From NCBI GenBank assembly GCA_947449695.1, contig CANFST010000020.1:1-45458 (forward strand): 45,458 bases of DNA, given 5' to 3'. The DNA comes from Chitinophagales bacterium. Lineage in GTDB: Bacteria; Bacteroidota; Bacteroidia; Chitinophagales; CAIODY01. The notes below the pieces were generated by a model. That model was not told the DNA's origin. It ran no database searches and was given only the letters and a program-made list of their open reading frames with translations. Each line of letters starts with the position of its first letter. Position 1 is the stretch's first letter. Made by a program: the position numbers and the translations under genes. Shown in pieces: positions 28,448 through 42,670 of this stretch.

Positions 28448-28545
28448 GGCTGAGATTCAATTCGCCATTCGCAATAAAAATAAAGCACCAATTTCCTCTT
28501 ATTGGGCGATTACAAATATTTTTTATCATTTTATAGTCATGGTTT

Positions 28546-28725
28546 GGGCATCTGCCCAAGCGTTAGGGGCTGCCGCCCAGAGCTTGTGGGCATCCGCCCA
28601 ATCAATGTGGGCTGCCGCCCAAAATAAATTTCCATCCGCCCAAGTATTGTGGGCATCCGCCCAAATTTTAGGGGCATCTGCCCAAAAGTTGTGGGCGTGC
28701 GCCCAAATTTTGTGGGCTGCCGCCC
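28546..28725. repeat. Nine-unit 21-bp tandem array of GGGCnnnnGCCC palindromes
   Basis: Units start at 28546, 28567, 28588, 28609, 28630, 28651, 28672, 28693 and 28714. Each is a 12-base palindrome plus a 9-base variable spacer. Eight have GGGC and GCCC arms around ATCT, TGCC, ATCC or GTGC; unit 5 has a decayed left arm (TTCC) but keeps GCCC. Spacers differ in sequence yet all are 9 long. A GGGC at 28504 is exactly two units upstream, perhaps a relict. In RNA each unit could fold into a 4-5 bp hairpin; in DNA, 21 bp equals two helical turns. Period and palindrome are direct observations; function is unknown. Confidence 0.9.
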
Positions 28726-30419: not shown

Positions 30420-31274
30420 TTATCCTTTTCCCATTTCTTTTGCTTCTAAACTTTTAGTTGCATGAGGTACTGCTCTCAATCTTTCTTTAGAAATTAATTT
30501 ACCAGTTACAGTACAGATGCCATAAGTTTTATTTTCAATACGCATCAATGCTTTTTCTAAATGTTCAATAAATGAACCAGCACGAGAAGCCATTTGGTTC
30601 AAATACTCACGTTCTAAAGTGCCAGCACCATCTTCCATTCCACCAAAACGGTTTTCAGTATCAGCTGTTCCATTTTCACCTGATTTGGTGATTTGCTCAG
30701 TGATATAATGTAATTCTTGTTTTGATTTTTCTAATTTTTCATTGATGATGGCTTTGAATTCTTCTAACTCTTCATCTGAATATCTCGAACGAGTAATATC
30801 TAATGTTGAGCGTTTCAAAGGTTGTGTACCAACTTTTTTAATTTCACGAATTTTTAATTCAGGAATAACTTCTTCTGCGGCTTTTTTCTGTGCCAATTGT
30901 TTTTTCAATAGTAGTTTTTCTTCTTTTTTCGACATTGCTTTTTCAACTTTTTTAGGAGTTGGTTTGGCAACTGGTTTAGAAATTTTCTTTTCAACTTTTT
31001 TAGGAGCCACTTTTTTTACAACAGGCTTAGCTATTTTTTTAACTACCACCTTTTTAGCCACTGGTTTTTTGGCAACAGGCTTTTTAGTTGCAACCTTTTT
31101 AGCAACAGGTTTTGCTGCTTTTTTAGCCACTGACTTTTTTGCTACAACTTTTTTAGCCACTGGTTTGTTTACTTTTTTAGCTGCAGGTTTTGATGCTTTT
31201 TTAGCCACAGGCTTTTTGGCAACTGGCTTAGAAGCTTTCTTTACCGATTTTTTCGGTGCTGGTTTTTTAGCCAT
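30420..31274 (-). CDS. DksA/TraR-like protein with histone H1-like lysine-rich N-terminus
   Basis: 284 residues in two parts. Residues 1 to about 115 are a low-complexity run of K, A, P and V in repeats such as KKPVAKK and KPAAKK, like histone H1 tails, and should bind nucleic acid. The C-terminal part is DksA/TraR-like: a helical pair around YSDEELEEFKAIINEKLEKS, then MASRAGSFIEHLEKALMRI, and a final segment NKTYGICTVTGKLISKERL in place of the zinc finger. Only one of the usual cysteines is left (C254), so it probably does not hold zinc in the normal way. DksA proteins bind RNA polymerase. It lies 7 bases downstream of ileS and may be cotranscribed. Whether it tunes transcription or compacts DNA is open. 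Confidence 0.85.
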   Translation of the reverse strand: MAKKPAPKKSVKKASKPVAKKPVAKKASKPAAKKVNKPVAKKVVAKKSVAKKAAKPVAKKVATKKPVAKKPVAKKVVVKKIAKPVVKKVAPKKVEKKISKPVAKPTPKKVEKAMSKKEEKLLLKKQLAQKKAAEEVIPELKIREIKKVGTQPLKRSTLDITRSRYSDEELEEFKAIINEKLEKSKQELHYITEQITKSGENGTADTENRFGGMEDGAGTLEREYLNQMASRAGSFIEHLEKALMRIENKTYGICTVTGKLISKERLRAVPHATKSLEAKEMGKG

Positions 31275-41076: not shown

Positions 41077-41148
41077 GGTTTCGTAGTTCAATGGATAGAA
41101 TAGGAGTTTCCTAAACTTTTGATACCAGTTCGATTCTGGTCGAAACCA
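41077..41148 (+). tRNA. tRNA-Arg (CCT)
   Basis: Cloverleaf of 72 bases: acceptor GGTTTCG/CGAAACC, D arm GTTC/GAAT, anticodon stem GGAGT/ACTTT with loop TTCCTAA (anticodon CCT), variable TGAT, T arm ACCAG-TTCGATT-CTGGT. Discriminator A, CCA not encoded. The antisense strand of its 3' half forms the end of the serine recombinase gene, with the recombinase stop codon touching the anticodon (41111-41113). That arrangement marks it as the likely attachment site of the element on its right. Confidence 0.95.
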
Positions 41149-42670
41149 CTCCACGGGAAAGTACACCAAAATCGGAGTGCTTTTCTTTTTTAGAATTATT
41201 GAAAGCCTTACTCTTACTGCATATTAAGGCAACCACAGGTTCTACTTTTAGAGTTCGAACTTTTTGTTTATCAAAAATCAACTTTTCGGGAAAAATCGAA
41301 CTCAATATTCTTCTTTTAGTTGCTGTATCCCTTTGTTCATAATAGTTTTCGAGGTTTACAAGGAGTTCGACACAACCACTAATTTGTTTTTCAAGATTCA
41401 ATAATCCTTTGTTTAAAGAAGACAATTCTAAGGTTAATCTAGTGATTTTTTCTTCAATTTGATTTCGCATTTCTTTATATTCATTCGAAGTAAACTCACC
41501 ATCTAGCATCATGTCTTTTGCGTTAGCTAATCGCTGTTTTTGTTTTTGAATTTCTTTATTAATTATTTCAATTTCTACCTTACTGTTTTTATCTTTTTCT
41601 TTCAGTTTGTCCTTTAAGATGGCTGCAAAAAGATTCGCACTACTTGGGTTGACTTTAATTTTTTTGAGTAGTTGGATAAAGGATTCATTGACCACCTCGG
41701 CTTTCTGTCTTTCCTTGCAACCTTTTGAACAGTGATAATAAGAAAACAATGTTCCCATCATTCCTCTTGATTTAGAAGCTGTTAAAGTCTTGCCACATTG
41801 CGGACAGAGCAAAAATCCTCTCAAAGGAAATTCATCTCTGACAGTGGTAAATGAAGTAGGCATATTCTTCTTTCTGCCATCTAAAATATCTTGTACTTTG
41901 TAAAACGTTTCTTCATCAATAATTGCTTTGTGCTTTCCAGCTACCCATTCAGCAGGTTCTTGTTTGTAAGCTGGTACAAATATTTTTCCGATATAAACTT
42001 TGTTTCGGAGTAATGCCCAAAAACTATTTCGATTGCTAATTAAGCCTTGTTTATTTAGTTTGTACCGCAATTCTTCGATGTTGTAAGTCCCTGTTGCAAA
42101 TTCTCTAAATGCTGTTTTTACAAGTTGTTCTTTTTTCCCACCTTCAGGTGCAATAATTGGTCGATTATTTTCATCACGAGTATTCTTGTAACCTACAGGA
42201 CAACCACCGAGCCATCTGCCATCTTTTTTTGCCCTTCTGATGCCGTGAAAAATATTTAAAGCTCTGCGGTCATTATCAACTTCGGGTGCAGTTAAATAGA
42301 TTGCAAGCATCACTTTTTGTTCAGGAATTTCTAAGTCCAAAGGTTGTTCGGCAGCTCTTGCTTCCACTCCTAATTTTTTGAGTTTTGATAACTCTGCATA
42401 GGCTTCTGGTGCATTTCTTGAAAATCTATCCCACTTTAAAAAGTAGATGTAATCAACTGCTCCTTTATTATATCGAAGGAAGTTCATTATCTTCTTCCAT
42501 TCAGGTCGTTGAAATGATTTGCCACTTTCATCATCGTGGTAAAAACCTACCACATCAATGTTTAGGTTTTCGCAATAACGATAAAGTTTTTCCTTTTGGT
42601 CAGTAGGACTATAGCCATTGTTTTGTTCATCAGTGGAAACACGGGTGTATATAATTGCACGTTTCTTCAT
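41111..42670 (-). CDS. Large serine recombinase (integrase) with zinc ribbon and coiled coil
   Basis: 519 residues. The N-terminal resolvase domain begins KKRAIIYTRVSTDEQ, with catalytic Ser12, and continues FLKWDRFSRNAPEAYAEL and the LAIYLTAPEVDNDRRALNI helix. The recombinase domain has GRWLGGCPVGYKN, and the zinc ribbon CPQCGKTL ... HCSKGCKER. A coiled coil of about 80 residues (KEKDKNSKVEIEIINKEIQKQ ...) completes the large-serine-integrase plan. The last 13 residues (GVVSTRIELVSKV) and the TAG stop are encoded by the antisense strand of tRNA-Arg. The gene therefore runs into the target site, as expected when the element is integrated there. A 45-codon gene lies 26 bases upstream. Confidence 0.93.
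   Translation of the reverse strand: MKKRAIIYTRVSTDEQNNGYSPTDQKEKLYRYCENLNIDVVGFYHDDESGKSFQRPEWKKIMNFLRYNKGAVDYIYFLKWDRFSRNAPEAYAELSKLKKLGVEARAAEQPLDLEIPEQKVMLAIYLTAPEVDNDRRALNIFHGIRRAKKDGRWLGGCPVGYKNTRDENNRPIIAPEGGKKEQLVKTAFREFATGTYNIEELRYKLNKQGLISNRNSFWALLRNKVYIGKIFVPAYKQEPAEWVAGKHKAIIDEETFYKVQDILDGRKKNMPTSFTTVRDEFPLRGFLLCPQCGKTLTASKSRGMMGTLFSYYHCSKGCKERQKAEVVNESFIQLLKKIKVNPSSANLFAAILKDKLKEKDKNSKVEIEIINKEIQKQKQRLANAKDMMLDGEFTSNEYKEMRNQIEEKITRLTLELSSLNKGLLNLEKQISGCVELLVNLENYYEQRDTATKRRILSSIFPEKLIFDKQKVRTLKVEPVVALICSKSKAFNNSKKEKHSDFGVLSRGVVSTRIELVSKV

Follow-up and report, generated by a model that had tools for sequence, protein, structure and literature searches.

A 21-bp-period array in a Chitinophagales bacterium is an orphan copy of the arrays found before genes of an unnamed Bacteroidota protein family

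In iteron and cooperative operator arrays, the sequence of the repeated site is matched to a sequence-specific protein, and REP and BIME elements represent palindromic repeats located between genes. BoxA elements often precede long non-coding RNAs, and their occurrence before CRISPR arrays is cited in the same source (PMC7862264); the gammaproteobacterial boxA consensus is GYTCTTTAANA (PMC5725501). Here, we report that an array in the genome of a Chitinophagales bacterium (contig CANFST010000020.1 of assembly GCA_947449695.1; the window, i.e., the whole stretch analyzed, comprises 45,458 nucleotides) belongs to a two-part unit that recurs in Bacteroidota, in which an array of 21-bp units, preceded in some loci by a promoter-like box and a boxA, is followed by the gene for a protein of approx. 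225 amino acids.

The first-pass annotation had described the array in the window as nine palindromes separated by spacers that vary in sequence and never in length. Nine 21-bp units are indeed found in register; however, intact palindromes are present in eight of them, as the fifth unit lacks its left arm. Exact GGGCNNNNGCCC copies start at positions 28546, 28567, 28588, 28609, 28651, 28672, 28693 and 28714, i.e., with steps of 21, 21, 21, 42, 21, 21 and 21 bp. The spacer length of 9 bp is constant as claimed, but the spacer sequence is not free, since spacers start with AA in 8 of 9 units and end with TTGT or TTAG in 6 of 9, and only approx. three spacer columns vary fully. The arms of the intact units reach TGGGC/GCCCA in 6 of 8. 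The observed number of GGGCNNNNGCCC copies in the window was 8, as compared to 0.06 expected from dinucleotide-shuffled windows (8 was reached by 0 of 100 shuffles), and three copies in the array region were obtained in 0 of 20000 base shuffles. TRF yielded periods of 21 and 42 for this array, and Rfam at gathering scores detected tRNAs and nothing else in the window. The features in and around the array are listed in Table 1.

Table 1. Positions, in the window, of the orphan array and of the sequence features surrounding it
Feature	Start	End	Strand	Method	Remarks
Palindrome GTTGTCGGTG-6-CACCGACAAC	28422	28447	.		5' of the window array
Similarity to the C7 copy	28455	28664	+	blastn	92% identity; residual leader 5' of the array and first units
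66-aa open frame across the array	28539	28739	+		heptads, e.g., LWASAQS
Tandem array of nine 21-bp units, eight with exact GGGCNNNNGCCC palindrome	28546	28725	+		orphan copy of a gene-leader array
Degenerate fifth unit TTCCATCCGCCC	28630	28641	+		left arm gone, register kept; C19 copy similarly defective in its fifth unit
Truncation joint	28728	28737	+		C7 and C19 arrays continue with TGCACTTTTACACG... and the gene start; window departs after TGCACTTTT
Stretch that also truncates the C19 copy	28734	28923	+	blastn	190 bp, 98.9% identity
Palindrome GTTGTCGGTG-6-CACCGACAAC	28784	28809	.		second occurrence, 3' of the window array
Related palindrome ATCGTTGGTGAACAAACACCAACGAT	28819	28844	.		present at the C19 copy too

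Three related arrays were found in this genome (3.14 Mb, 99 contigs), i.e., one each on contigs C7 and C19 and the one in the window. The C7 array is followed within approx. 50 bp by a gene start, MPHNGPFPSAEADRNDYY, with an in-frame TAG after 121 codons; the product is an unnamed protein with a predicted helical bundle and FN3 fold. The C19 array is followed only by the first 50 codons matching the C7 gene and then by a different stretch, and the window array is cut even earlier than the C19 copy. On the other side, the window and the C7 upstream region are alike (92%) from position 28455 on and diverged further 5'; one would expect a promoter to lie in this 5' flank of the C7 copy. The window array is a copy stripped of its gene and of the 5' flank seen in C7, and, because of this truncation, it is probably not a working site and most likely inert. 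The initial comparison with iteron or cooperative operator arrays is supported in part, in that the period and the dyad fit phased duplex sites, but it probably does not hold for the window array itself. 

Exact GTTGTCGGTG-6-CACCGACAAC sites number five in the genome, four of them beside the truncated window and C19 copies and one on contig C88; the repeated palindromes around the orphan array resemble a small composite mobile or recombination-prone block. In a comparison within the genus, the sugar-nucleotide neighbour gene was found in two relatives but the TolC-like gene was not present in the flanks compared, so that an empty site at the window locus could not be demonstrated. Arrays away from the gene were searched for with the window type, in this genome (G000) and its family. 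An orphan 21-bp array with GGGC-type units was also seen at positions 2313-2440 of locus L044 (G001:C126), where no family gene was seen beside the array and where the preceding coding stretch is presumably integrase-like. Elsewhere in the window, an ORF at 30420-31274 on the reverse strand contains a long Lys/Ala/Pro repeat (AKKPVAKK...), followed by a C-terminal part that we take to be DksA/TraR-like, and at 41077-42670, near the contig end, an ORF presumably encoding a serine-recombinase-like protein adjoins a tRNA gene; the two may belong to an integrated element.

The association between arrays and genes was investigated at 90 gene places from searches of the order and the class and at 12 later places (11 phylum-wide places outside the class and one other). 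Eight fragments or second pieces were left out of the class-search places (G000:C19, G000:C52, G356:C1:223772, G468:C1:1044, G613:C104:66020, G405:C55:37527, G532:C76 and G468:C97), as were the truncated G234 loci L042 and L043, the latter of which has an array, from the order-search places. TRF found a tandem array upstream at 90 of all 102 places, with a period that was a multiple of 21 at 82 places, 41 or 104 at three more and 7-15 at five, counts that are inflated by orthologous loci since related genomes are not independent; adjacency of array and gene is given by construction, as the places were located via the gene. Downstream regions, by comparison, showed TRF arrays at 17 of 70 places (multiple of 21 at 2 of 70), and gene bodies at 2 of 101 (multiple of 21 at 0 of 101). 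When no period was preset, the 700 bp upstream gave a best self-match lag (lags of 8-90, match of at least 0.5) that was a multiple of 21 in 79 of 89 cases, as compared to 2 of 33 downstream under the same thresholds, and the best lag was likewise a multiple of 21 at all 12 later places. With the period preset to 21, 81 of 90 gene places scored above shuffles in 1000 bp of upstream sequence (3 shuffles per place), as did the window, and 714 of 716 steps were exactly 21 by this method, which favours 21. Most copies of the gene examined thus have an array of their own at the 5' side.

Members of the linked protein family were found in 6 of 348 genomes of the order (E 1e-4), in 23 of 395 genomes of the class (E 1e-3) and in 4 of 395 genomes of the phylum (E 1e-6, with another alignment), the bacterium's own genome being counted each time; they include proteins of an uncultured Bacteroidetes bacterium (L133) and a Cytophagales MAG (L135). 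Several copies often occur in one genome, and the copy numbers are lower bounds, as at most seven candidates were scored per genome. The protein is mostly basic (median pI 9.26, n = 78; at least 9 in 46 and at most 6 in 4 members). The full-length AlphaFold model built from 3 sequences (pLDDT 80.5, pTM 0.45, other models lower) shows a helical bundle and an FN3 domain, and the N-terminal half modelled alone, again from 3 sequences, reached a pTM of 0.80. The C-terminal half is modelled as an FN3 beta-sandwich, with FN3 chains at the top of the VIA-align list (7jgu, Z 9.8, rmsd 2.2 over 87 residues). For the N-terminal half alone, Foldseek and VIA-align returned helical bundles, none of them distinctive (best Foldseek E 1.5, best Z 8.5), and no DNA-binding fold was found in either half. 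Sequence searches against Pfam, NCBIfam, PHROGs, PADLOC and PDB gave no convincing family and weak matches only, e.g., DUF5017 (0.0094), phrog_11729 (0.0018, in 1 of 6 members) and PRTase_III-A (0.0048, in 1 of 16). Neither tblastn of plasmid and phage collections with one family member nor a search of viral contigs with two members as queries gave a match.

Clustering of neighbour genes in short flanks revealed no family in more than three genomes, barring frames derived from the arrays and one orthologous group in four genomes. Two types of ORF recurred in upstream flanks, one at 5 loci in 3 genomes (L049, L088, L121, L050 and L111), which we take to encode a LuxR-type response regulator, and another at 3 loci in 3 genomes (L065, L081 and L094), presumably LytTR-like. 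These regulator-like neighbours are possible candidates for proteins that bind the arrays.

While the period is constant, the sequence of the units is not. The mean similarity of consensus units was flat at 0.37-0.39 below 40% protein identity and increased to 0.56 above 85%. The earlier suggestion that spacing rather than sequence is conserved was therefore well founded, as the 21-bp period is kept before relatives of the linked gene with mostly unrelated units; GGGCNNNNGCCC, in contrast, which had been taken for the conserved element, proved to be one among dozens of unit sequences upstream of these relatives. We compared the arrays of nine pairs of loci, in which the following array alignments were observed. 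For L081/L094 (gene DNA 88%, 5' flank 87% identical) the alignment was 0.55, as compared to 0.61 for shuffled arrays, and for L078/L084 (gene 81%; 5' flank 83%, with promoter-like box and boxA conserved) it was 0.65 vs. 0.66. Values of 0.56 vs. 0.60 shuffled were obtained for L087/L060 (gene 70%) and of 0.65 vs. 0.62 for L051/L071 (gene 74%) and L054/L085 (gene 70%). Arrays were still alignable in L099/L109 (gene 79%; 0.74 vs. 0.60 shuffled) and weakly so in L047/L048 (gene 81%; 0.70 vs. 0.63 shuffled), they aligned well in L078/L080 (gene 96%; 0.90), and those of L046/L047 matched at 1.00, with unit numbers of 8 and 11. As judged from these alignments, the whole array can be replaced, and the number of units can change, with the period kept, in some pairs and not as a general rule. 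In each of L118 and L119 (G613), a single array switches between two unrelated unit families and may have been caught in the middle of a replacement.

We also assessed whether the units share a dyad, using column permutation, which keeps composition and conservation and breaks order, as the null. A dyad was detected at P < 0.05 in 43 of 82 arrays and at P < 0.01 in 25 of 82, and the other 39 of 82 showed no significant dyad under this null. Across the 82 arrays, complementarity was raised at separations 5, 7 and 9 (0.67, 0.60 and 0.56, respectively, as compared to approx. 0.42; sd 0.02-0.03) and was not raised at separations 1 and 2. The best arm geometry was 3 bp around 4 (z 12.8), with 3 around 2 close behind (z 9.6). 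The 12 later arrays, 8 of which showed a dyad at P < 0.05, gave a broader and weaker profile, with separations 4-7, 9 and 10 up by one to two sd or slightly more. Registering the arrays on the dyad revealed a weak symmetric consensus, with a central G..C and a GAAAnTTTC linker (z up to 5.7). The features that persist across copies are the 21-bp step and a dyad with arms of approx. 3 bp around 4 bp.

Upstream of the arrays, GTTCTTT was the commonest 7-mer within 150 bp (18 of 81 loci). The wider motif G[TC]TCTTT occurred in this region at 19 of 81 loci on the gene strand and at 2 on the reverse strand, as compared to 5 and 6 further upstream, 0 and 1 in arrays and 1 and 2 in gaps; the motif was chosen from the same data in which it was counted, and orthology or close paralogy links several of the loci. 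It was found in 1 of the 12 later loci, and none was seen before the C7 copy. The motif also stands in the 16S leaders of genomes G432, G611 and G477, which carry GTTCTTTGA and GTTCTTTGAAAATA, and no 16S match was obtained in the five other genomes queried (G000 included). As 19 of 81 arrays stand behind the boxA of the lineage's own rRNA on the gene strand, some arrays are probably transcribed. A -7-like box was found 5' of boxA in 6 of 19 boxA loci (1.4 expected); in L078, L080 and L084 it is TACTATTG, located 15 bp ahead of boxA. Another 11 sites (5.0 expected) lay between the array and the start codon, at 11 of 81 loci including L052, L055, L072 and L076, so that the array may escape transcription in some loci. 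The position of the array relative to the promoter thus seems to vary.

We hypothesize that the array is a helically phased DNA-binding array that acts as duplex DNA and controls its own gene, a reading to which we assign a probability of approx. 0.45. As 21 bp represent two helical turns, all dyads would be placed on one face of the DNA, and a symmetric protein might bind along the array cooperatively; this protein could be the product of the neighbour gene or else another chromosomal factor. The neighbour protein is the first candidate for the binder because it is linked and mostly basic, with no recognised DNA-binding fold. Such a binder would read geometry, together with the weak G..C and GAAAnTTTC features, more than exact sequence. 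In boxA loci, the bound filament would stand between promoter and gene and might control the passage of RNA polymerase, and boxA-dependent antitermination might help the polymerase to traverse the untranslated stretch. Intrinsic DNA curvature as the selected trait was rejected, as the arrays showed no curvature signal (calculated with dinucleotide wedge values).

An alternative with a possible, though lesser, claim, which the first-pass annotation had also raised as a string of nine hairpins, is that the array acts as RNA, with a small hairpin every 21 nt in an untranslated leader. The family protein or some other factor would read the shape of these hairpins, and the RNA could serve either in leader control or as a structured molecule in its own right. 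The placement of arrays 5' of the gene, the gene-strand boxA matching that of 16S, the hairpin-like geometry of approx. 3-bp arms around 4 nt and the turnover of sequence, which is compatible with recognition of shape, all agree with this explanation, and arrays also outfold their column-permuted versions, with z below -1.64 in 36 of 82. The antisense strand, however, folds equally well (40 of 82; mean z -1.93, as compared to -1.90 on the gene strand), and the consensus hidden in the units is a symmetric one. Moreover, on the gene strand the arms contain G-U less often than A-C (44 vs. 73 in 44 arrays; 112 vs. 156 across the full set of 82), which indicates no preference for RNA pairing and nothing more, as base composition alone predicts a mild A-C excess; and no covariation was found in the arms of the 43 arrays with a dyad, where complementary double changes accounted for 56 of 140, as compared to 540 of 1503 at other axes. 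The strand symmetry and this lack of covariation favour duplex DNA over RNA hairpins, and the same-face phasing that the first-pass annotation had proposed for B-DNA fits the absence of RNA-strand bias in the dyad features. It is rather unlikely that the arrays are functionless satellites readily formed by slippage at this spot, the gene being what is kept. The difference of 8 and 11 units between near-identical orthologues, the possible complete turnover of unit sequence and the persistence of the window copy without a gene are what slippage might produce, but it offers no evident reason for a constant 21-bp period with unrelated sequences across families, for the placement at the 5' side (downstream 2 of 70) or for a common dyad geometry. 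A single copy with a period varying freely among relatives, as foreseen for a simple satellite, was looked for in this genome and its relatives; the search instead gave the three copies here, and the period was fixed elsewhere.

A coding role, in which the 21 nt represent 7 codons of a heptapeptide-repeat or leader peptide, appears improbable. One frame is open from a common ATG in the window, C7, C19 and G001:C53 copies, and a gene-strand frame is open in 57 of 82 arrays (44.1 expected, sd 3.9); yet the excess is equally large on the opposite strand (61 vs. 47.2 expected, sd 3.8), and the G234 copies carry stops in the heptad frame. The coding reading was rejected as a general rule, as every gene-strand frame is closed in 25 of 82 arrays. 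Least probable of all is a guide-array system of the CRISPR or TIGR-Tas kind, in which guides from the array would serve the neighbouring protein: the array does lie beside a single protein gene, boxA precedes some arrays as it does CRISPR arrays (PMC7862264), and TIGR arrays have short spacers and in some cases tandem stem-loops (PMC12045711), but the units are diverged copies of one sequence rather than independent spacers, the protein, whose model combines a helical bundle with FN3, matched no nuclease or Nop entry in either Pfam or NCBIfam, and plasmid and phage collections gave no tblastn match to the one member used.

The presence of a period-21 array before most family genes, with a new sequence each time, suggests a gene-plus-array unit of a kind not described so far. 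A bolder and quite tentative reading is that these units form a new class, in which a helical bundle and FN3 protein has a private, self-renewing and helically phased array before its gene and reads the geometry of this array; unit sequence would then be free for wholesale replacement, as in satellite DNA. If so, one genome could hold many distinct gene-array pairs, each an addressable nucleoprotein switch or structure in cis, and the window would show an array stranded from such a unit. Selection on geometry is strongly suggested by a period that stays constant while the sequence changes freely, a combination seen here in dozens of arrays linked to one protein family, and these arrays open to direct test the question whether phasing alone can be the trait under selection in a bacterial array. 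They also provide a starting point for an unnamed, multi-copy protein family of Bacteroidota, and a caution that, when stranded as orphans, arrays of this kind can resemble puzzling intergenic palindromes.

Word matching in the open-access literature, by which synonyms are missed, found no description of 21-bp arrays before such genes. Like other FN3-domain proteins, e.g., those in PDB and phage tail proteins, the family protein has an FN3 fold in its C-terminal half; unlike these, it belongs to no named sequence family that we found, has a helical N-terminal half and is encoded behind an array. The window copy, bracketed by a repeated palindrome, is reminiscent of REP and BIME elements, whereas the array has a fixed period and lies 5' of members of one gene family, and REP-like palindromes flank only the truncated copies seen. 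With TIGR-Tas systems (PMC12045711), our loci share a palindromic array of short units beside one protein and repeats that vary between loci; they differ in that the unit listings show one diverged repeat with drift rather than two short spacers per unit, the contigs are chromosomal, and no Nop domain was matched (all 16 members searched lacked a Pfam match at E 0.01, and all 4 searched lacked one in NCBIfam). CRISPR arrays with a boxA leader (PMC7862264) resemble our loci in that a repeat array lies near a protein gene, with boxA ahead of it in a subset of loci, but here the array lies 5' of the gene, the unit is 21 bp, the protein has no Cas-like match, and, rather than near-identical repeats with unrelated, independent spacers, whole 21-bp units are mutually diverged copies. 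Closest are iteron and cooperative operator arrays, which likewise have tandem sites at whole helical turns, with dyads on one face, beside a gene that they possibly control; the helix-phased spacing is fixed here as well, 82 of 90 upstream TRF arrays having a multiple of 21 as their period. One conserved site sequence was retained in the closest pairs and not in two pairs with genes 81-88% identical, and, unlike in iteron and operator arrays, the units are unrelated between most paralogues and replaceable between close orthologues, while the period is kept.
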